A stretch of DNA of 64,000 nucleotides from Oscillospiraceae bacterium (GTDB taxonomy: Bacteria; Bacillota; Clostridia; Oscillospirales; Acutalibacteraceae): the NCBI GenBank assembly GCA_902796905.1, contig CADBQU010000024.1, positions 1 through 64,000 on the forward strand. The letters run 5' to 3'. The notes beneath the pieces are model-generated. The model did no database searches. It saw only the letters and a list, made by a program, of their open reading frames with translations, and was not told where the DNA came from. How positions within the stretch are numbered: position 1 is the first letter of the stretch; every line of letters begins with the position of its first letter. This document shows positions 6,716 through 32,589 of the stretch, one piece after another. A program made the translations under genes and the position numbers.

Positions 6716-8671
6716 CTAAATATCCAAATCCGTAGCAAAAATTGCGTTTTCTTCTATAAATTTACGTCTGGGCTCAACTTCTTCTCCCATTAACATAGAA
6801 AAAGTAGCGTCTGCAAGCTCTGCGTCCTGCATAGTAACCTTTAACAATGTTCTGGTTTCAGGGTTAAGGGTAGTTTCCCAAAGCTGTTCGGGGTCCATTT
6901 CGCCTAAACCTTTATATCTCTGAACATCTGCCGTTCCGCCCAATTTTTCTATATATTCCGCTTTTTCTTCATCGGTAAAGGCGTCAAAGTGCTGTTTGCC
7001 CTTGCTTACCCTAAATAACGGCGGCTGAGCCAAATAAATGTGTCCTGTTTCTATAAGGTCGGGCATAAATCTAAAGAAAAACGTTAAAAGCAATGTTCTT
7101 ATGTGCGAGCCGTCAACGTCGGCATCCGCCATAATAACAATTTTGTCGTATCTTAATTTTTCAATATCAAAATTTTCGGCTATGCCGGTACCCAAAGCCA
7201 CTATTACCGGGGTTAGTTTATCGTTGCCGTAAACCTTATCCGCTCTTGCTTTTTCAACGTTAAGCATTTTACCCCATAACGGCAATATTGCCTGATAAGT
7301 ACTGTTTCTGCCTTCTACTGCGCTTCCGCCGGCGCTGTCTCCCTCAACAATAAATATTTCGGTTTTTGCGGCGTCGTTCGAAATACAGTCGGTCAGCTTT
7401 TCGGGCATACGGGTTTTTCCGCCTATACCCGATTTATTACGGCTGGTTTCTCTTGCCTTTTGAGCGGCTTCTCTTGCATTTGCCGCTGCAAGCGACTTTT
7501 TAACTATAATATCTCCGTCTGCCGGATTTTCCTCTAAATATTCCATAAGCTTTGTGGAAATAAGCCTGTTAACCATGGTTCTCATAGAGGTGTTTCCAAG
7601 CTTCGCCTTTGTTTGGCTTTCAAACTGAGCGTCTTTTAGCTTTACGGATATTACGGCTATTACGCCTTCTAAAATATCGTCCGCCTTTAGTTTGGGCTCG
7701 CTTTCTTTCATCTTTTTAAATTTAACGGCATAATTGTTTATTGTGCTTACCAAAGCCGTTCTAAAGCCTATTTCGTGCGTACCGCCGTCTACCGTATGCA
7801 TATTGTTTGCAAAGCTTATAATTTTAGTATCGTATCCGTTGTTAAAAAGAATTGCAACTTCCGCCGCGCTGTCATCGTTAGAAACAGAGCAGTAAATAGG
7901 TTTATCTATTATTCTTTGTTTGTTTGTTTTGGATAAAAGCCAGTCGCAATAGCTTTTTATTCCGCCCTCGTAATGGAAAATATCGTGTTTTTGCTCTCCG
8001 TCTTCTCCTCCTTCTCCGGGACGCAAATCCGTTAAAGATATTTTTGCCCCGGCATTTAAAAATGCCTGTTCTCTTAATCTTTGGGCTAAAATATCATAAT
8101 CGTAAACGGTAGTATCGGTAAAAATAGTGCCGTCCGGCTTAAAGGTTACGGTGGTTCCGGTGCTGTCGGCGTCTCCTATAACTTCAAGCTCCGTTACCTG
8201 AACACCTTTTTCAAAGCGCTGCTTATAGGTTTTTTTACCGTCTTTAACAACAACTTCAAGCCATTCCGACAAAGCATTAACAACCGAAGCGCCAACCCCG
8301 TGAAGTCCGCCGCTTACTTTATATCCGCTTCCGCCGAATTTACCGCCCGCGTGAAGTTTTGTAAAAACAACCGAAACGGTGCTTATGCCTTCTTTAGGAT
8401 GTATTCCTACGGGGATACCTCTTCCGTTGTCTTCAACCCTTATAATATTGTCCGGCAAAATATCAACCTTTATGTTATCGCAATAACCGGCCAAAGTTTC
8501 GTCTATGGCATTGTCCACAATTTCATAAACTAAGTGGTGAAGACCTCTTTCTCCTGTAGAACCTATGTACATACCGGGACGTTTTCTTACGGCTTCAAGT
8601 CCCTCTAAAACCTGAATACTGTTTTCGTCGTAGGCTTGTTCTACACGGGTGTTAATGTCCTGTTCGCTCAT
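6716..8671 (-). CDS. gyrB: DNA gyrase subunit B
   Basis: GyrB supplies the ATPase of gyrase. The 651-residue product has the GHKL fold (IVDNAIDE; GRGIPVGIHP; the GGLHGVGASVVNAL lid region), a Toprim domain with EGDSAGGSA, and the metal-binding ADVDGSHIRTLLL, and the C-terminal RYKGLGEM. The start ATG has AAGGAG 8 bases before it. It is the first gene of gyrBA but lies 240 bases after remB, separated by a cloverleaf repeat and a T-rich stretch, so it may have its own promoter. Confidence 0.97.
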   Translation of the reverse strand: MSEQDINTRVEQAYDENSIQVLEGLEAVRKRPGMYIGSTGERGLHHLVYEIVDNAIDETLAGYCDNIKVDILPDNIIRVEDNGRGIPVGIHPKEGISTVSVVFTKLHAGGKFGGSGYKVSGGLHGVGASVVNALSEWLEVVVKDGKKTYKQRFEKGVQVTELEVIGDADSTGTTVTFKPDGTIFTDTTVYDYDILAQRLREQAFLNAGAKISLTDLRPGEGGEDGEQKHDIFHYEGGIKSYCDWLLSKTNKQRIIDKPIYCSVSNDDSAAEVAILFNNGYDTKIISFANNMHTVDGGTHEIGFRTALVSTINNYAVKFKKMKESEPKLKADDILEGVIAVISVKLKDAQFESQTKAKLGNTSMRTMVNRLISTKLMEYLEENPADGDIIVKKSLAAANAREAAQKARETSRNKSGIGGKTRMPEKLTDCISNDAAKTEIFIVEGDSAGGSAVEGRNSTYQAILPLWGKMLNVEKARADKVYGNDKLTPVIVALGTGIAENFDIEKLRYDKIVIMADADVDGSHIRTLLLTFFFRFMPDLIETGHIYLAQPPLFRVSKGKQHFDAFTDEEKAEYIEKLGGTADVQRYKGLGEMDPEQLWETTLNPETRTLLKVTMQDAELADATFSMLMGEEVEPRRKFIEENAIFATDLDI

Positions 8672-8802
8672 TAATACCTTCTCCTTAACTTTTTATCTTT
8701 TTTATCTTTTTTATCTTTTGTTTTTTAATTTTTGGTTTTATTTATTTTTTTATATGTTTTTTATTTGCTTTTATTTGTTTTTATTTGTTTTTTATATTTC
8801 GG

Positions 8803-8888
8803 GGCGAAGAGCCCAAAGCCCAAAGGACTTTGCAAAAGCTTTGGCTTTTGCCCCAAAAACAAAAATTTGTTTTTGGGGGCTCTTCGCC
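8803..8888. repeat. Intergenic cloverleaf palindrome 5
   Basis: Perfect outer stem GGCGAAGAGCC/GGCTCTTCGCC encloses an imperfect AAAGCCC arm, a GCAAAAGC arm and a CCCCAAAAACAAA arm (order C-B-A). It sits between remB and gyrB inside the otherwise collinear dnaA-to-gyrA set, about 130 bases before gyrB. Confidence 0.9.
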
Positions 8889-8911
8889 TGTATATAAACC
8901 TTTTTAATAAT

Positions 8912-9163
8912 TTACAACCCTAATCTTTTTAAAATGGTTTTTGTTGAAATTTGAGAAATATATATTATTTTTTCGTTTCCTTTTTCTGCCACTATAAAGC
9001 TTTTGGGTAAATCTTCGCCTATAACCGTTACCGTCTTTTTTTCTTTTTCAGCCGAAAATAAAAAATTTCTGGTAGATTTTTTAACCGTTGCATTATCTAA
9101 ATCAAAAATACCTATTATGTTTTTTGTATTAATAACCGTATTTTGTCCTAAGTATAGGTACAT
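8912..9163 (-). CDS. remB: Extracellular matrix regulator RemB (DUF370, YaaB)
   Basis: The 83-residue product starts MYLYLGQNTVI and has the DUF370 pattern of the Bacillus YaaB/RemB protein, a small DNA-binding regulator relative of RemA. In Bacillus subtilis remB lies between recF and gyrB, exactly as here. It overlaps the 3' end of recF by 16 bases, so it is translated as part of that transcript. Its role in this organism is inferred only from family and position. Confidence 0.88.
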   Translation of the reverse strand: MYLYLGQNTVINTKNIIGIFDLDNATVKKSTRNFLFSAEKEKKTVTVIGEDLPKSFIVAEKGNEKIIYISQISTKTILKRLGL

Positions 9164-10230
9164 AATTCTCCCTTTTCTATTTTAAAAACCGTACCGCTTT
9201 TTAAAATATTTATATTTGCCGGGTCGCACGCAGTTAAAAAAACCTGCCAATCGGTTAAATGATTTAAAATAAAATGCTGTCGGTTAATATCCAGTTCACT
9301 TAAACAATCATCTAATAACGCCACCGGATTTTCATTTACGGCGTTTTTCATAATTTCGGCTTCTGCCAATTTTAAACAAAGAGCCGCCGAACGTTTTTGC
9401 CCCTGAGAACCGTAACTTTTGGCGCTTTTTTCGTTTATTAAAACCAAAATATCGTCTTTTTTGGGACCTATAGAAGTATTTTTATTTAAAATATCGTTAT
9501 TTCTGCTGTTTTTTAAACTTAAAAATATTTCTTCTTTTGTTGTATTTTTGTTAAAGTCCGAAATATATTCTAAAGTTAACTTTTCTTTATTGTTACTAAT
9601 GCCAAAATATAATTTTTGAGCCTCTTTTTCAAGTTTTTCACAATATTTTGACCTGTAATATACTATTTTTTGCGAAACCTCCGCCATTTTTATTTCAAAA
9701 GGCTCCAACAAACCAACGCTGCTTTTTTTTTCGGAAATTTGCTTTAACAGTGTATTTCTTTGTAATAAAATCCTGTTGTATTCTCTTAAATATTCTATAT
9801 ATTTAGGGGTAATACTTGAAATTGCCAAATTTAAAAATCTGCGCCTTTTTTCGCCCGAACCCGAAATTAAATTAAGATCTTGCGGAGAAAATACAACCGT
9901 ATGAAAATCTTTAGCCAAACTGCTGGGTCTTACGGGTTTATTTAAAAATTCGGCTTTTCTTTTTTCATCTATAATAATTGCCGAATTTTTTTGTATATTT
10001 TCACTTTCAAAAACACAAAAATTTTTACAAACGTTTTTATTAAACATAAGCATTTCTTTATCTTTTGCCTGTCTAAAGCTTTTAGCGCCGCAAAACAGCC
10101 AAATTGCTTCTAAAACATTTGTTTTTCCCTGTCCGTTTTCGCCGAAAATCAAATTCATTTTCGGTCCGGGATTTATCTCCATTTTTGTTATGTTTCGGAA
10201 ATTATTGATTTTTATATTTTTTATAATCAT
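9148..10230 (-). CDS. recF: DNA replication and repair protein RecF
   Basis: RecF is an SMC-like ATPase that loads RecA at gapped DNA with RecO and RecR. The 360-residue product has Walker A GENGQGKTN (30-38), the ABC signature SYGSQGQKR and Walker B ALLDDCLSELD near the C-terminus. Its 3' end overlaps remB. It is separated from yaaA by the cloverleaf repeat 10265-10352, which interrupts the classic dnaN-yaaA-recF order without breaking any frame. Confidence 0.95.
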   Translation of the reverse strand: MIIKNIKINNFRNITKMEINPGPKMNLIFGENGQGKTNVLEAIWLFCGAKSFRQAKDKEMLMFNKNVCKNFCVFESENIQKNSAIIIDEKRKAEFLNKPVRPSSLAKDFHTVVFSPQDLNLISGSGEKRRRFLNLAISSITPKYIEYLREYNRILLQRNTLLKQISEKKSSVGLLEPFEIKMAEVSQKIVYYRSKYCEKLEKEAQKLYFGISNNKEKLTLEYISDFNKNTTKEEIFLSLKNSRNNDILNKNTSIGPKKDDILVLINEKSAKSYGSQGQKRSAALCLKLAEAEIMKNAVNENPVALLDDCLSELDINRQHFILNHLTDWQVFLTACDPANINILKSGTVFKIEKGELCTYT

Positions 10231-10264
10231 CTATAATCTTCTTATAAATTTATAACTTTTTTGC

Positions 10265-10352
10265 GGCGAAGAGCCCAAAGCCCAAAGAGCTTTGCAAAAG
10301 CTTTGGCTTTTGCCCCAAAAAACAAAAATTTGTTTTTTTGGGGCTCTTCGCC
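10265..10352. repeat. Intergenic cloverleaf palindrome 6
   Basis: Outer stem GGCGAAGAGCCC/GGGGCTCTTCGCC encloses AAAGCCC-type, GCAAAAGC and CCCCAAAAAACAAA arms (order C-B-A). It is nearly identical to the copy at 8803 and lies between yaaA and recF, 5 bases from the yaaA stop and 34 bases from the recF start. Confidence 0.9.
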
Positions 10353-10357
10353 TTTTT

Positions 10358-10573
10358 TTAATAATCTTCTTTTTTAACGGATATTTCGTTACCGTTAATT
10401 TCTACAATATCTTTTTCTCTTATTTTTTTGCCTCTTAAAATGCAAACTTCTCCGTTTACTTTAACTTTTCCATTTTTTATTAATAATTTTGCTTCTCCGC
10501 CGGTACCTACTTCTCCGGCAAGTTTAAGTAAACTGTCTAATTTTATATAATCTTCTTTAATGTTTATTATCAT
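10358..10573 (-). CDS. yaaA: S4 domain RNA-binding protein YaaA
   Basis: The 71-residue product is almost entirely one S4 RNA-binding domain, with the pattern LDSLLKLAGEVGTGGEAK, then LIKNGKVKVNGEV. The Bacillus homologue YaaA (RlbA) lies between dnaN and recF, as here, and the family is linked to the ribosome, though its exact role is unclear. Its ATG overlaps the dnaN stop (ATGA-type, 4 bases), so translation is coupled to dnaN. Confidence 0.9.
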   Translation of the reverse strand: MIINIKEDYIKLDSLLKLAGEVGTGGEAKLLIKNGKVKVNGEVCILRGKKIREKDIVEINGNEISVKKEDY

Positions 10574-11670
10574 GATAACCTCATAGGCATTACTAAGTAT
10601 AAAAAGTCGTTAGTTTCTACCGGACTTATAACGGCTGCCGCAGCAGGACCGTTAAATTTTAAATAAATTTCTTCGCATTCCGTTGCTTTTAACGCTTCGG
10701 TTAAATATCTGGAATTAAATCCTATTGTAAATTCGTTGCCGTCGTAATCCACAGCCATTTCATCCGTGGCTCTTCCTATGCTTGAAACGCTTGTAAATAT
10801 TATTTTTCCCTTTTCAAATTTCATTCTTATAGGAGTTTTAATTTGATCGTTAATAATAAGAGAAATCCTGTCTATAGTGTTTAATATTTCTTTTACGTTA
10901 ACTTTTATGCTTACGGTTTCGCTTAAAGGTATAGAGCGTTTGTAATCTATATATTCTCCGTCTATTAATCTCGAAATTATAATATATCCGTTGTTTTCAA
11001 AACTTATGTGTTTTTTACCAACTCTTATTGTTATTTTTTCGTCTTCTTCGCCTATTGTTTTAACAGCTTCGTTAATAGCCCTGCTGCTTACAATAAATTC
11101 TGCGTCGTTAGTGGTTTCTATAATATTGTTTCTTATAGCCAATCTGCTGCCGTCTATAGCTATTAAAGACATTTTATTTCCGCTGAATTCAAATTTAATA
11201 CCCATTAAAATAGGTCTTGCATTTTCGCTTGTAGCCGCAGCAAACGCCGTTTGCCTTACCATATCTTTTAAAACTTCGCTGCTAACTGTTACTTCTTCGT
11301 TTTCGCTAACCGTAGGCATTTCCGGAAAATCTTCGCTGGTCATTCCCACAATATCAAAATTGGAAGCTCCGCAGGAAATATGAGCCATCATTTTTTCGTC
11401 AACATTTATTTCTACAATGTCTCCGTCCATTTTTCTTAAAATTTCCAATAAAATTTTAGCGTTTAAAACAATGTCTCCGTCTTCTTCAACTCTAACAGGT
11501 AAAACTTTTGTCATACCTATTTCCAAATTATATGCCATCATAGTAACAGCCGAGCCTTCGGCAGAAAACAGTATACCTTCCAAAACAGGTATTGCTGCCC
11601 TTGTTAAAACTGCTCTCGATAAATTAGAAACGGCTTCTAATAAATTTACTCTTTCAACTTTAATAAGCAT
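10570..11670 (-). CDS. dnaN: DNA polymerase III beta sliding clamp
   Basis: DnaN is the ring-shaped processivity clamp. The 366-residue product has three repeated clamp domains and ends in LVMPMRLS, the conserved C-terminal end that contributes to the partner-binding cleft. GAAGGA precedes the ATG. It is separated from dnaA by 477 bases of very AT-rich DNA that carries origin features and overlaps yaaA downstream. Confidence 0.97.
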   Translation of the reverse strand: MLIKVERVNLLEAVSNLSRAVLTRAAIPVLEGILFSAEGSAVTMMAYNLEIGMTKVLPVRVEEDGDIVLNAKILLEILRKMDGDIVEINVDEKMMAHISCGASNFDIVGMTSEDFPEMPTVSENEEVTVSSEVLKDMVRQTAFAAATSENARPILMGIKFEFSGNKMSLIAIDGSRLAIRNNIIETTNDAEFIVSSRAINEAVKTIGEEDEKITIRVGKKHISFENNGYIIISRLIDGEYIDYKRSIPLSETVSIKVNVKEILNTIDRISLIINDQIKTPIRMKFEKGKIIFTSVSSIGRATDEMAVDYDGNEFTIGFNSRYLTEALKATECEEIYLKFNGPAAAAVISPVETNDFLYLVMPMRLS

Positions 11671-12147
11671 AATTATCCTTCTTTCTTTTTTTAGGATTTT
11701 TTGTTTTTTTTAATAAATAAAGTTATATTTTTAGTTAAGTTTAAAAAAATTAAAATTAAAGATAAAAAATTTAATTTTTAAAATTATTTTTTTTATTTTG
11801 TTTAAAAAAAAATAAAAAATTCTTTTATTTTATATTATTAATTTTTAGTAGTATTAGTAGTAGTGTCAGTTTTGTTAAAAACTCTTAAATACGGCACGGT
11901 TAACACAAAAAAACGTTAACAATAAAAACTTTAATAAAATGTTAAAAAGTTAGTATTTTTTAAAATATTAACTTTTAGGTTTAAAACTAAAGGTTAATAA
12001 CTAAAAACTATGTTAAAAAGTAACGATTTATGTAAACTTGTGCAACTAAAAAAATATTTTGTTTTTTAAAAACTTTTTTGTATGTTTTATATAAAATAAA
12101 ATATACAACTTTTAATTTTTTAAATTTTAGCGTTTAAAATTTTTGTT
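11671..12147. other. dnaA-dnaN spacer, probable unwinding part of oriC
   Basis: This 477-base spacer has no ORF and very little G or C. In the dnaA-to-dnaN direction it holds three copies of TTTTTAACA (complement of TGTTAAAAA at 12011-12019, 11940-11948 and 11873-11881), a small GC cluster (CGGCACGG, 11892-11899), a TAG triplet tract (11846-11863) and a run of A/T from about 11700 to 11845. That order matches the unwinding side of the Bacillus subtilis origin. No canonical TTATCCACA box is present. The use as origin is inferred from position and pattern. Confidence 0.75.
11846..11863 (+). promoter_or_regulatory. DnaA-trio tract
   Basis: Six triplets read TAG TAG TAT TAG TAG TAG on the plus strand, i.e. 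3'-GAT-5' repeats moving away from the putative boxes toward dnaN. The DnaA-trio is the single-strand DnaA-binding motif described for Bacillus subtilis and widely seen in bacterial origins, and the strand and direction both fit. Confidence 0.75.
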
Positions 12148-13479
12148 TTAAATTTCCTGTTTTAAATTTTTTATAATTTCATCAACCATTTCTTTTTCAA
12201 AAGGATTATCTTTTAAATGTTTTTCAATTTTAGAAACGGTATAAAGAATTGTGGTATGGTCTTTTCCAAAACTTTCGCCTATAGCCTGGTAAGAAAGCTC
12301 GGTGGTTTCCCTTGCAATGTACATTGCAACCTGCCGTGCATAAACTACCGGAGCCGTACGGCGTTTGGATAAAATATCTTTTTCGGGAATGGAATAGTTT
12401 TGGCTTACGGCCCTTATTATTTCTTCTATTTTTATGGGTTCCGGCCGTTGGTCGTTTATAACTTCTTTAATAATATTTTGAACTACCGCCATTGTGGGAA
12501 CTTTGTTTTGTAAATCCATAAAGGCTTTTAATTTTTTAACAACGCCTTCCAGCTGACGGGTATTCATTTTTATATTTTCGGCTATGTAATAAACTATATT
12601 TTCACTTAAATCAATATTAAGCATTTCGGCTTTTGTTTTTATAATTCCAACTCTGGTTTCAAAATCCGGAGGAGTAATGTCTGCCAAAATACCGCTTTCC
12701 AATCTGCTCCTTATTCTTTCGTCAAAGGTTTTTAAATCTTTAGGCGGACGGTCGCTGGTAACAACTATTTGTTTTCCTGCCTGAAAAAGAACGTTTATTG
12801 TGTTAAAAAATTCTTCCATCATACTTTCTTTTCCGGCTATAAAATGTATATCATCCATAAGCAAAACATCCGTTTGCCTAAAACGATTTCTGAATTCTTC
12901 CATAGTAAGCTTGGACTGCAAAGAATTTATAAGCTGATTTCCAAATTCTTCTCCTCTTATGTAACAGATTTTTTTTGAGGGCCAAACAACCGACATTCTG
13001 TTTTTAATAGCCAATAAAAGATGGGTTTTTCCCACACCGGAATTGCCGTAAATAACCAAAGGATTATACAAATGAACGGAACTTGGATTTTCGGCTATGG
13101 CCATAGCCGTAGCGTGGGCAAATCTGTTGGAAGCGCCTACTATAAAATTATCAAAAGTGTAATTGGATTCAAAATCGGAATTTTCGTTTGTAATGGGTTT
13201 TATATCTATGGGTTCGTTGTTAAAATCATCCAACAATACAATGGTAAGTTTTGTAGGAATACCGAAAACTTCTTTTAAAGCGTTTTCCACCAATTCCATA
13301 TAATTCATTTCTATAATTTGTTTTTTATATTTTGAATAAATGGATACAACAAATTCTCCGGGTTTTATTTCACGCGGAGAAAGATCTTTAATCCAAACAT
13401 TAAAACTTACTTCGGTAATGTGCTTTTTTATTTCTTCACAAACGGCATCCCATATATCGTTAAGAGAATCAACCTTCAT
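12148..13479 (-). CDS. dnaA: Chromosomal replication initiator protein DnaA
   Basis: DnaA is the AAA+ initiator that opens the origin. I start it at MKVDSLND (13479), with AGGA 8 bases upstream, giving 443 residues; an upstream ATG adds 14 unlikely residues. Domain I is followed by an AAA+ domain with Walker A YGNSGVGKTHL and Walker B LLMDDIHFI. Domain IV keeps the KRR arginine but reads SYQAIGESFGKDHTT where Bacillus and E. coli have SLP(K/E)IG and FGGRDHTT: the LP pair is YQ and one residue is missing before DHTT. These positions touch the DnaA box, so altered box recognition is possible. Confidence 0.96.
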   Translation of the reverse strand: MKVDSLNDIWDAVCEEIKKHITEVSFNVWIKDLSPREIKPGEFVVSIYSKYKKQIIEMNYMELVENALKEVFGIPTKLTIVLLDDFNNEPIDIKPITNENSDFESNYTFDNFIVGASNRFAHATAMAIAENPSSVHLYNPLVIYGNSGVGKTHLLLAIKNRMSVVWPSKKICYIRGEEFGNQLINSLQSKLTMEEFRNRFRQTDVLLMDDIHFIAGKESMMEEFFNTINVLFQAGKQIVVTSDRPPKDLKTFDERIRSRLESGILADITPPDFETRVGIIKTKAEMLNIDLSENIVYYIAENIKMNTRQLEGVVKKLKAFMDLQNKVPTMAVVQNIIKEVINDQRPEPIKIEEIIRAVSQNYSIPEKDILSKRRTAPVVYARQVAMYIARETTELSYQAIGESFGKDHTTILYTVSKIEKHLKDNPFEKEMVDEIIKNLKQEI

Positions 13480-13773
13480 TAAAAAAGTCCTTTCGTTTTT
13501 ACATCTTTTTTTGTTATACAAAGCAACCGTTGTACCCCGATTGCTTTGTATATTTTTTTAAAAAATTATAATAAAAAAGTTAATATTAATATAAAATAAA
13601 CGGTGGAAAAGTTTAAAAACAATACTTTCCCTAAATACTATATTATTATATCATAAAAGTATAAAAAATACAAGAAAAATCCTTGCAAAAAAGCAGGTTA
13701 AAAAGTTAAAAATCAACGGTTTTATTTTTAAAAAAGAAAATACAAAATTATAGAAAATTTAAAAAAGGTATGT
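13480..13773. other. dnaA upstream region
   Basis: This AT-rich region holds no ORF. A single weak DnaA-box-like CTTTTCCACC (complement of 13602-13611) and a TTTTTAACC (complement of GGTTAAAAA at 13697-13705) are the only box-like sequences seen. The inverted pair TTATACAAAGCAA and TTGCTTTGTATA (13514-13526, 13540-13551) is a hairpin around the dnaA leader and could be an operator or attenuator. Confidence 0.4.
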
Positions 13774-13853
13774 TATAATATTCGCAGACAAAACAAAGCG
13801 GAAGCTTTGCTTTAAAAAACGTTGTTTTTGCGGCATTCGCCGCGTCTGCTCTA
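13774..13853 (+). repeat. Promoter-linked cloverleaf element, copy 2
   Basis: TATAAT (13774-13779) is followed by TTCGCAGAC; GCAGAC (13784-13789) pairs with GTCTGC (13844-13849). Inside are hairpins with stems CAAAGC, an A/T arm around AAAAACG-TT-GTTTTT, and GCGGC (loop ATTC). It is the first unit of a tandem set of three cloverleaves between dnaA and the RluA-type gene. Confidence 0.75.
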
Positions 13854-13858
13854 TTGAA

Positions 13859-13931
13859 ATTTCAAAATTATTTTTTGCGTTGCAAAAATACGGCATACGC
13901 CGTTAAAGCCTTTGGCTTTAAATTTTGAAAT
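13859..13931. repeat. Linking cloverleaf between two promoter-linked copies
   Basis: A perfect 11-bp outer stem (ATTTCAAAATT at 13859-13869, AATTTTGAAAT at 13921-13931) encloses three perfect hairpins: TTTTTGC/GCAAAAA, ACGGC/GCCGT and TAAAGCC/GGCTTTA. It exactly fills the space between element copies 2 and 3; the right outer stem shares its last T with the next TATAAT. Confidence 0.75.
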
Positions 13932-14014
13932 ATAATATTCGCAAACAAAGCAAAGCGGAAGCTTTGTTTTAAAAAATGTTGTTTTTTGCGGCATTCGCCG
14001 CGTTTTTATATTGA
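13931..14014 (+). repeat. Promoter-linked cloverleaf element, copy 3 (degenerate)
   Basis: TATAAT at 13931-13936 is followed by ATTCGCAAAC. The outer stem GCAAAC pairs only partly with GTTTTT (14002-14007). Hairpins with stems CAAAGC and GCGGC match copy 2. It ends TATTGAATGGC, as does the copy at 50580. The RluA-type gene starts about 155 bases downstream on the same strand. Confidence 0.6.
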
Positions 14015-14169
14015 ATGGCTAAAACCTTTTTAGGCAAAGCCTAAAAAATATTCTTAAAAAAAGTAAAAATTTTAAAAAAGTTTTTCTTTTTGCAATATTT
14101 GTTAAGTTTTTCTCTATAAAATTTAAAAATCATTATTTATAAATATTTAAAAACAAAAAAAGGAAAAAA

Positions 14170-15138
14170 ATGAAGGAATTTAAAGTTTTAAAAAATGACG
14201 CCGATATGCGAATAGATAAGCTTTTACAAAAGCTTATGCCCTCTATGCCGAAAAATTTAATGTATAAGTTTATAAGAACCAAAAAAATTAAAGTGAACAA
14301 AAAAAGGACGGAAATTTCTTATAAAACAAAAGAGGGAGATATAATTTCGGCTTTTGTAAAAGATGAATTTTTTGAGGAAAAGCCTAAGCACTACGATTTT
14401 TTAAATTGTCCCGATAAAATAGATATTGTTTACGAAGACGAAAACATAATGCTTATAAACAAACCGCAGGGACTTTTATGCCATCCGGATAAAGAAGAAT
14501 ACCGCGATACGCTTCTTTCAAGAATAGCTCACTATTTATATAATAAAAAAGAATACGACCCTAAAAGCGAACAGTCCTTTGCGCCGGCTTTGTGCAACCG
14601 CATAGACCGCAATACCTGCGGAATTGTTATTGCCGCAAAAAATGCGGCGGCGCTTAAAATAATGTGCGAAAAAATAAAAAACAGAGAAATAGACAAAAGA
14701 TATAAAACAATAGTTCACGGAATTATGCCTAAAAACGAAGATGTTTTGCAGGGTTTTTTATTTAAAGACGAAGCAAAAAACCGAGTTTTTATTAACAGTA
14801 AAAAAAGCGAAAAAAACCGTACGATTACAACAAAATATAAGGTTTTAAAAACCAAAAACAATTTATCCCTTTTAGAAATAGAATTGGTTACGGGAAGAAC
14901 TCATCAAATAAGGGCTCATTTGGCAAGTATAAATCATCCTATTTTAGGCGACGGCAAATACGGAAAAATAAGCCCCGGAGAACCCACAAGGCAGGCTCTT
15001 TGCTCTTATAAATTAACCTTTAAATTTAATGTAAAAAAAGAAGAACAAAACCAAACGGAAAATTTATTGGATTATTTAAACAGCAAAAGCTTTGAAATAA
15101 AAAATATATGGTTTGAAAAAGAGTATTTCGGGAATTAA
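14170..15138 (+). CDS. RluA-family pseudouridine synthase with S4 domain
   Basis: The 322-residue product has an N-terminal S4 RNA-binding domain (about 13-70; MRIDKLLQKL) and an RluA-type catalytic domain with the active-site Asp in NRIDRNTCG (HRLDxxTSG in most family members), INKPQGLLCHP, and VTGRTHQIRAHL. It isomerises uridines of rRNA, most likely large-subunit rRNA like RluC/RluD, but the site cannot be told. AAAGGA precedes the ATG. It occupies the place beside dnaA where rpmH usually lies in Firmicutes. Confidence 0.9.
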   Translation: MKEFKVLKNDADMRIDKLLQKLMPSMPKNLMYKFIRTKKIKVNKKRTEISYKTKEGDIISAFVKDEFFEEKPKHYDFLNCPDKIDIVYEDENIMLINKPQGLLCHPDKEEYRDTLLSRIAHYLYNKKEYDPKSEQSFAPALCNRIDRNTCGIVIAAKNAAALKIMCEKIKNREIDKRYKTIVHGIMPKNEDVLQGFLFKDEAKNRVFINSKKSEKNRTITTKYKVLKTKNNLSLLEIELVTGRTHQIRAHLASINHPILGDGKYGKISPGEPTRQALCSYKLTFKFNVKKEEQNQTENLLDYLNSKSFEIKNIWFEKEYFGN

Positions 15139-15181
15139 ACAAAACAAAAATGTTAATAACTTTAATAAAAAGGAAAACAAA

Positions 15182-15679
15182 ATGAAAGAAAAAAAAGAAT
15201 ATAAAAAAATTTTAAAGGGCTTAAATATTTTAATTTTGTTTTTATTGATTAGCTGTTTAACATTAAGTTTAAACGCTTGCAAAAAAAATAAAAATAACAA
15301 TAACAAAAATTTAAGTAAAAAAACTTACAGTTATGTGCCGCCTGCCAAAACCGAAAGAAAAAGTTATATAAGCGGAAACAATGTTATATATAAAAGCACT
15401 ACGGGAGAAAACTATATAAACATAACTTACAAATTTTCGGGAAGCGATTTAAAAAGTGCAGAGGTAGAACAAAAATTTGAATCGGAAGATCTTGCAAAAA
15501 GGTCTTGTGATACGTGTATAGGTCAAAATAAATATGCAAGCCAAGAATTGTTTAAAAATATACGCTCTAAAGGTAAAATGTTTTATTGTGAGGTTACGGA
15601 GTTTGGGTTGCAGCAGTATAAAGGATTAACAAAAGAAGAACTCTGCAAAAAACTTGACGCCGAAACACCCGTACATTAA
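15182..15679 (+). CDS. Small lipoprotein of unknown function
   Basis: The 165-residue product has a charged N-terminus, a hydrophobic segment (about 13-32) and a lipobox SLNAC, so it should be lipidated at that Cys by Lgt and anchored outside the membrane. A Lys/Asn-rich linker and a roughly 110-residue compact domain follow, with two Cys residues in RSCDTCIG. No family is recognised. I start it at the ATG at 15182 with AGGA 7 bases upstream; the longer frame overlapping the previous gene has no ribosome site. It likely shares a transcript with the upstream synthase. Confidence 0.8.
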   Translation: MKEKKEYKKILKGLNILILFLLISCLTLSLNACKKNKNNNNKNLSKKTYSYVPPAKTERKSYISGNNVIYKSTTGENYINITYKFSGSDLKSAEVEQKFESEDLAKRSCDTCIGQNKYASQELFKNIRSKGKMFYCEVTEFGLQQYKGLTKEELCKKLDAETPVH

Positions 15680-15731
15680 TTTATTTTATAAAAATAAAAA
15701 ATTAAAATTAAAAAAGTTAAAATATTAAAAT

Positions 15732-15766
15732 AAAAAGGACGGAAATTTTCCGTCCTTTTGTTTTTA
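15732..15766. terminator. Bidirectional terminator
   Basis: GGACGGAAA pairs with TTTCCGTCC across one base, flanked by A and T runs on both sides. It serves the convergent lipoprotein gene and the HAD phosphatase gene. Confidence 0.85.
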
Positions 15767-15779
15767 TAAAAATTACAAT

Positions 15780-16472
15780 TTACAAAATGTTTTTTATTTC
15801 CGACAAATTTTCAACTTCAAAAGTAAAGGGAATGTTGTTGATGTTTTCGTTTTTTAGTATGTTAACAAAAACAGTGTCTATTCCGGAATTTTTTCCGCCC
15901 AAAATATCGCTGGATAAACTGTCGCCAATAATTAAACATTCTTCTTTTTTGGCACCTATATCATTTAAAACAAAATCAAAAAATTCTTTTTGCGGTTTTT
16001 GAAATCCCAATTCTTCGGAAATATAAAGCTTTTTAAAATACTTTTTAATTCCGGATTTTTCAAGTCTCATTTTTTGGGTAACTGCCACGCCGTTTGTTAT
16101 AACAAAAAGGGGATATTTTTTTTGCAAGTAATCCAAAAGCTCTGTGGCTCCCGGTATTAAACAGTCGGTTTCCCTTAGGTTATAAAAGTAACGTTGGTTC
16201 ATTTCCATAGGTTTAATATTGCTGTTAAGCGTTTTTAAAAACTCCGTAAACCTTTTTGGAAAAATTTCTTCCCTTTTAATTTCTCCCTTTTCAAACTGTT
16301 TCCAACAACGGTCGTTTATTTTGCTGTAAGTTTCTATTGTGGCGTCGTCGCTCGGCAGATTATACTTAATTAAAACATTTTTTAAAGCATTGTGCTCACA
16401 AAGCTTAAAATCCATAAGAGTATCGTCTACATCCAAAAGAATATATTTATATTTTTTTAATTTGTTTTCCAT
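15780..16472 (-). CDS. YjjG-family HAD nucleotidase
   Basis: The 230-residue product is a HAD-superfamily phosphatase with motif I DVDDTLMDF (nucleophile and acid Asp), motif II FVITNG, a Lys in GFQKPQKEFF (motif III) and motif IV IIGDSLSSDI. The C1-type cap and the overall pattern match the YjjG family of noncanonical pyrimidine nucleotidases, which dephosphorylate non-standard nucleoside monophosphates. GAGGAA precedes the ATG. It stands alone, ending at a shared terminator. Substrate is inferred from family only. Confidence 0.85.
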   Translation of the reverse strand: MENKLKKYKYILLDVDDTLMDFKLCEHNALKNVLIKYNLPSDDATIETYSKINDRCWKQFEKGEIKREEIFPKRFTEFLKTLNSNIKPMEMNQRYFYNLRETDCLIPGATELLDYLQKKYPLFVITNGVAVTQKMRLEKSGIKKYFKKLYISEELGFQKPQKEFFDFVLNDIGAKKEECLIIGDSLSSDILGGKNSGIDTVFVNILKNENINNIPFTFEVENLSEIKNIL

Positions 16473-31712: not shown

Positions 31713-32589
31713 AAATAGCACCTCCTTATAATTAACCGCCTTTAAAAAAATCACCGTTAGGTTTGGTTAATTTAAGAAAGTGCTTAAAATTTTGTTTAAA
31801 AGAAGCGTTGGCTTAAGCGTTGGCATTTTTAAAGCTTTAAATTTAAACCCAAATAAAAAACCAAAAATAAAAACACAAAATTTTTAACCGCATAAAATAA
31901 AAAACCAAAACGGTAAATTTAAGCGTAAAAGCAAAAAACAAAATTTTAAAAAACTTAAATTGAATTTTAAATTAAATTTTGTACGGCTTTACGGTTTTGT
32001 TTTTGTTTTTAGGTATTTTTATTAATTTTTAAAATGTAAAAATGTTTTTAAAGCTTGAAAAAATACAACCTTAAAAAGTATATTAAAACGCATTAAACAT
32101 AAAATAAGCCCTTTAACCTAAAGTTAAATTTTTAAACAAATAAAAATAAATCCAAACTTATATACCGGCTTATTAATTGCTTAAAATAAAAGCAAAAAAA
32201 GCTAAGTTAAATATAAATTTTTAAAACAAGATTTTATGTTATTTGTTAGGGGTGGCGGGTAAACCCATGAAACGATTGTTTTATATTTTATTTTAATATT
32301 TTATTTTAATAATTAAGTAAAAAGTATTTATAAAATAAATTTAAAATTTAAAATAAATTAAAAATGCTTTAGGCGTTAAACTAATCCTTTTCACAAATAT
32401 ATTTTATAACCTTTTAAATATATTGTCAAGAAAAATTAGTGTACATATTTACAGAAAATGTATAAACCGTTCCGTAAATTGGTTATTTTGTACAATGCGT
32501 TACAAAAAAATAAAGCATTTAAGCCTTTTGTGTTTTTTTTAAAATGCAAAAAATGTCAAAATTGAAAGATGAAAACTTTTAAAAATTAC
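31713..32589. other. AT-rich region without genes
   Basis: This 877-base gap has no ORF of note and no clear hairpin. It consists of short A/T words such as AAATTTTAAA. One 30-base island (32246-32275, core GGGGTGGCGGGTAAACCC) stands out by its G and C content and contains the short hairpin GGGTAAACCC; its role is unknown. The rny promoter should be in the left part but I cannot place it. Confidence 0.5.

Follow-up and report, generated by a model that had tools for sequence, protein, structure and literature searches.

A probable chromosomal origin with a DnaA-trio and A/T-drifted DnaA boxes in the dnaA–dnaN spacer of an Oscillospiraceae bacterium

The gap between dnaA and dnaN in this Oscillospiraceae bacterium contains a clear DnaA-trio and no canonical DnaA box, TTATCCACA; in its place, the word TTTTTAACA occurs three times. 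This raises the question of whether the spacer is the chromosomal origin and, if so, what its DnaA boxes are. The most probable answer (probability of roughly 0.87), judged from sequence comparison, is that the spacer is the chromosomal oriC, that the TTTTTAACA words are the ordinary boxes of the family drifted toward A/T, and that opening is driven by the trio.

The stretch of DNA analyzed here (the window) covers the opening 64 kb of a contig of 101,394 bases, which belongs to a draft genome of 1.64 Mb in 53 contigs. Metagenome bins of uncultured Clostridia/Oscillospiraceae are the nearest relatives. On the minus strand, from right to left, dnaA is followed by a 477-bp spacer (11671–12147; G+C 14%), dnaN, a small S4-domain gene, recF, remB, gyrB, and a gyrase-A-like ORF. 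A gene order of the dnaA-dnaN-recF-gyrB type is the usual origin neighborhood in Firmicutes. The anatomy of the locus is directly established, and the features that bear on the question are as follows.

10570–11670, minus strand: dnaN, beta clamp
11720–11845, no strand assigned: A/T run toward dnaN, seen in the sequence; presumed DNA unwinding element
11846–11863, plus strand: DnaA-trio tract TAGTAGTATTAGTAGTAG, complement CTACTACTAATACTACTA (sequence, shuffles, genome pattern search)
11864–11872, minus strand: AAACTGACA, abutting the trio; probable degenerate tandem box (alignment with relatives)
11873–11881, minus strand: putative DnaA box C, TTTTTAACA, the trio-proximal strong box (alignment, matrix)
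11940–11948, minus strand: putative DnaA box B, TTTTTAACA (alignment, matrix)
11992–12000, minus strand: weaker box-like word TTATTAACC (matrix score 6.3)
12011–12019, minus strand: putative DnaA box A, TTTTTAACA (alignment, matrix)
12028–12037, minus strand: GTTTACATAA, conserved element shortly upstream of the distal box A (alignment)
12148–13479, minus strand: dnaA, initiator of 443 aa (TIGR00362, 447 bits)
13602–13610, minus strand: near-canonical single box TTTTCCACC, about 130 bp upstream of dnaA (matrix/word search)

Two other elements lie near these features. Between the S4-domain gene and recF (10265–10352, minus strand) there is a strong, branched hairpin with an energy of −47 kcal/mol and a z of −4.8, whose closing stem of 12 bp starts GGCGAAGAGCCC; an Rfam search of 8500–16000 matched no family, this hairpin included. 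A 56-nt repeat with the palindromic core CAAAGCGGAAGCTTTG is present in two copies, 93% identical (13774–13829 and 13931–13986), between dnaA and a divergent pseudouridine synthase gene, and its core has no further exact copy within the 64-kb window.

The trio is the plainest element of the spacer. The first-pass annotation had described it, with Bacillus polarity, in the dnaA–dnaN gap, and this description holds. As in B. subtilis, the strand reads as GAT repeats in the 3′→5′ direction, which leads from the boxes to dnaN. Six trios are present, five GAT and one TAT, compared with a minimum of three for the BUS, an arrangement of tandem DnaA boxes, a GC-rich spacer, and DnaA-trios (3′-NAN-5′) (PMC8287927). 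None of 2000 dinucleotide-shuffled versions of the spacer contained the pattern, and its uniqueness is directly established, since a pattern search of the 1.64-Mb genome returned this single copy.

The boxes are less obvious. As had been reported, TTATCCACA is absent from both dnaA flanks; it is also absent from the entire 101-kb contig, and the 9 copies that a pattern search returned genome-wide are scattered, compared with 13 for a reversed control word. The three TTTTTAACA words were also located correctly, 67 and 71 bases apart on the dnaA-coding strand. Their reported agreement at six of nine positions is correct for TTATCCACA but does not apply to the standard E. coli consensus, TTWTNCACA (PMC7561715), from which TTTTTAACA differs at position 6 only (8/9). 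The spacer holds four TTWTNAACA words and no TTWTNCACA, and it has no box-like word whose sixth base is C. Of 2000 shuffled spacers, none had three TTTTTAACA copies on one strand (the mean was 0.33 copies over both strands), and 0.35% had at least three on either strand, for a test word chosen after the fact; a thrice-repeated 9-mer containing C or G is not rare, being found in 30% of shuffles. Over the 64-kb window, the frequency of TTTTTAACA is close to that expected by chance (12 copies against 8.4), and the contig contains 18 copies. Because thrice-repeated 9-mers are not rare and TTTTTAACA is near chance over the window, the case for the boxes is carried by comparative evidence. Box density was dropped as an origin detector: the spacer falls within the top 1–6% of 300-bp windows along the contig, which is not decisive.

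Of 80 related genomes, 75 yielded a DnaA, as did 13 loci of a second collection, and the dnaA–dnaN spacer was excised for most of these. In an alignment of spacer 11671–12147 with ten sister spacers, all three TTTTTAACA words coincide with box positions of the relatives, so that their positional homology is directly established. Box A is represented by TTTTCCACA (L040, L007), TTATCCACA (L039), TTTTCAACA (L010), and TTATTCACA (L009); box B by TTATCCACA (L040, L008), TTATTCACA (L004, L005), TTATTAACA (L012), and TTTTCCACA (L010); and box C by TTTTTCACA (L040), TTATCCACA (L009), and TTATTAACC (L005). The spacings are also kept, with 70–73 bases between A and B and 65–76 between B and C in the aligned relatives (71 and 67 here). 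A position matrix trained on 60 other spacers only gave its top scores in this spacer to the three TTTTTAACA words. The proposal that these words are the DnaA boxes of this organism is thus supported, and the conservation in related species that had been named as its check is present.

Strand bias in the 60 relatives points in the same direction. Counts on the dnaA-coding strand and on its complement are 78 and 23 for TTWTNAACA, 77 and 17 for TTWTNCACA, and 13 and 3 for exact TTTTTAACA. Since chance A/T words would show no such bias, the words with A at position 6 are probably working boxes across the order and not chance words. The absence of canonical boxes, which the first-pass annotation had implied to be an oddity, is shared by most relatives: TTATCCACA is missing from 49 of 60 sister spacers of the order, and any TTWTNCACA from 17 of 60. 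By this comparison, a missing canonical word is the rule in the order, with this spacer at its A/T-rich end. The boxes appear to be of the ordinary family type; they carry A at position 6 and T at both position 3 and position 5, and the spacer around them has a G+C content of 14%.

The position of TTTTCCACC upstream of dnaA is not conserved among the sisters, and a search of the sisters for a conserved box cluster upstream of dnaA found none. The form GTTTMCATAA of the GTTTACATAA element is present in seven family members (L007, L010, L011 as GTTTCCATAA, L012, L016, L039, and L040) and was not found in the aligned congeners L004–L006, L008, and L009; the element may serve as a site for a regulator or represent a weak box in inverted orientation (TTATGTAAA). 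In L007, about 300 additional bases made up of short repeats (GCGAAGC, CATAAC) occupy the first 300 bases of the spacer, separating the dnaA end from the box cluster, and the origin itself is intact despite this insertion.

Strand composition, suggested earlier as a way to confirm the origin, gave a divided result. For the contig, raw cumulative GC skew reaches its minimum at 32166 and not at dnaA, but raw skew follows gene direction, and a gene-strand-corrected skew at fourfold-degenerate sites fits a switch near dnaA. The G fraction at these sites is 0.44 in leading and 0.34 in lagging genes, assuming a start at dnaA. A leading/lagging switch at dnaA is 13.6 log units better than no switch and trails the best point by at most 0.4 log units, in a broad best region of about 10–35 kb; these values describe one contig of a draft assembly that cannot be ordered. 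Orientation-corrected skew of three congeneric contigs showed no clear switch at dnaA. In a closed genome of the family (G014), the skew stays positive over some 1.1 Mb following dnaA, and most samples of the other half are negative. The corrected skew and the unique trio support the dnaA–dnaN spacer as the origin, short of proof for this draft genome.

The junction between box and trio is where this spacer departs from its relatives. Trio tracts are plain in most of them, and the tandem arrangement is readable in most of those compared, typically as box, box, a gap of about 4 bases that is usually C-rich, and CTA repeats. Like this spacer, those of the same family (L040, L007, L012, L039, and L010) and genus (L004–L006, L008, and L009) have homologous box positions, spacings, and the trio; unlike it, most of them retain one or more boxes in which position 6 is C, and their trio is preceded by a gap that contains C. 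In L040, the order is TTTTTCACA-CAACTCACA-CCCC-CTACTACTA, whereas here it is TTTTTAACA-AAACTGACA-CTACTACTAATACTACTA, where AAACTGACA is the counterpart of CAACTCACA, which CCCC follows. The usual short, often C-rich gap is absent, or its place is taken by an extra CTA, and spacer 11671–12147 has no short GC-rich gap between box and trio. Gaps other than GC are also found in several relatives, e.g., GACA or TAAT. In the BUS, a GC-rich box–trio gap averaging about 4 bp is typical but no requirement, as the published search rule permits 0–16 bp (PMC8287927), so that a missing gap is within the known range. The lost gap is the one remaining local peculiarity of the spacer.

Opening from a trio has been reconstituted for seven species, B. 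subtilis among them (PMC8287927). By analogy, DnaA binding, filament growth, unwinding, and helicase loading most likely proceed here as follows. DnaA would occupy at least three double-stranded TTTTTAACA boxes (A to C), all in the same orientation. From box C (11873–11881), and aided by the degenerate AAACTGACA, ATP-DnaA would pass onto the TAG trios of the plus strand, where it would stretch open the A/T-rich tract toward dnaN, and the helicase would load at the opened tract.

Among the alternatives, the one that survives best is possible, though doubtful as a full account: the origin may have decayed to low-affinity sites, with weak TTTTTAACA boxes that need trio-side cooperativity and very high A/T content and with no high-affinity anchor. 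That the spacer has no words bearing C at position 6 is consistent with such decay, as is the fall in affinity of the E. coli and M. tuberculosis proteins with any deviation from TTATNCACA (PMC5043019). However, affinity depends on the DnaA of the species itself, and the 17 of 60 relatives without TTWTNCACA share this condition. This reading refines the preferred one, i.e., ordinary family boxes drifted toward A/T, and both can hold together.

A true change in DnaA specificity, with A preferred at position 6 and coupled to domain IV substitutions and a loop deletion in a real origin, is unlikely. The protein itself has an AAA+ domain and an HTH with R399 and the DHT signature, as in the DnaA family, and a domain IV match (PF08299, 89.5 bits). 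Residue numbers are those of E. coli, as obtained by alignment with the E. coli sequence. The main DNA-contacting residues are kept, as directly observed and in keeping with the preferred reading: domain IV retains R399, the R407-Q408 pair, and D433-H434-T435-T436 (DHTT). It differs from E. coli in P423 (Q here), R432 (K), and H439 (Y), and one glycine is deleted from the signature loop (FGGRDHTT to FGKDHTT). Positions 423, 432, and 439 are among the listed DNA contacts of domain IV (PMC5043019), and these replacements, together with the four TTWTNAACA words in a spacer free of TTWTNCACA, speak for a changed preference. Yet the loop deletion occurs both in the close clade and, sporadically, in other parts of the order, along with replacements of P423, R432, and H439, and TTATCCACA is retained by relatives showing the deletion and K432 (L009, L006, and L040), while L071 combines the deletion with four TTATCCACA words. 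The deletion is thus ruled out as the cause of box drift, and since the deletion and K432 are common to species carrying TTATCCACA, no residue change seen accounts for the drift. Moreover, A6 boxes accompany many different DnaA signatures, and the near-canonical TTTTCCACC survives upstream of dnaA. The A6-box fraction shows only a modest increase with falling spacer G+C (Spearman −0.34), and its correlation with dnaA GC3 is not significant; A+T content alone was likewise rejected as the cause of drift. A combined version, in which domain IV has shifted to A at position 6 and the trio has invaded the gap, with the filament loading from the box edge without a GC clamp, seems a little less likely still.

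Finally, that the TTTTTAACA words are chance products of an A/T-rich spacer and the origin lies elsewhere, e.g., upstream of dnaA or near 32 kb, is very improbable, as the raw skew minimum and the near-chance frequency of TTTTTAACA over the window are outweighed by the column-for-column homology with sister boxes, the trio unique in the genome, the corrected skew, and the strand-biased words of the relatives.

For origin searches in this order, exact-word searches for TTATCCACA miss most origins (49 of the 60 spacers sampled), whereas the geometry of trio and tandem boxes stays readable where TTATCCACA fails. The family provides a natural series of box variants on one conserved geometry, useful for testing the limits of DnaA-box drift and the need for a GC gap before the trio.

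Among the closest known systems is the B. subtilis BUS (PMC8287927), which shares with this spacer the dnaA–dnaN location, the polarity, tandem boxes beside trios, and the A/T tract beyond. Here, by comparison, there is no TTATCCACA, the second box is degenerate, and the 4-nt GC gap is absent, so that the trio directly follows the second box. The BUS rule places a box within 16 bp of the first trio, with at most two mismatches to the standard box of the species and four for the second box (PMC8287927). TTTTTAACA is 9 bp from the trio, with three mismatches to TTATCCACA, one to TTWTNCACA, and none if the species box is TTTTTAACA itself; the 2021 BUS program rule, with TTATCCACA as the standard and at most two mismatches for the better box, would miss the module for its three mismatches. 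In Clostridioides difficile oriC2 (PMC7561715), a trio (CTACTACTATTACTACTA) likewise lies in the dnaA–dnaN gap before the unwinding region, with boxes clustered upstream; unlike here, its boxes are TTWTNCACA, CAC precedes the trio, and a second box cluster is present upstream of dnaA, where only one clear box was found in this genome. A literature search for TTTTTAACA as a DnaA box returned no relevant title among the matches listed. The putative box TTATTAACA of Mycoplasma hominis, M. arthritidis, and M. mobile (PMC2751442) is A/T-drifted and carries, as here, T and A at positions 5 and 6, respectively, although those of M. hominis lie upstream of dnaA and its dnaA–dnaN gap has none, whereas here they lie in the dnaA–dnaN spacer. 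The locus belongs to the known tandem-box/DnaA-trio type of origin, here with A/T-drifted boxes and a lost gap.
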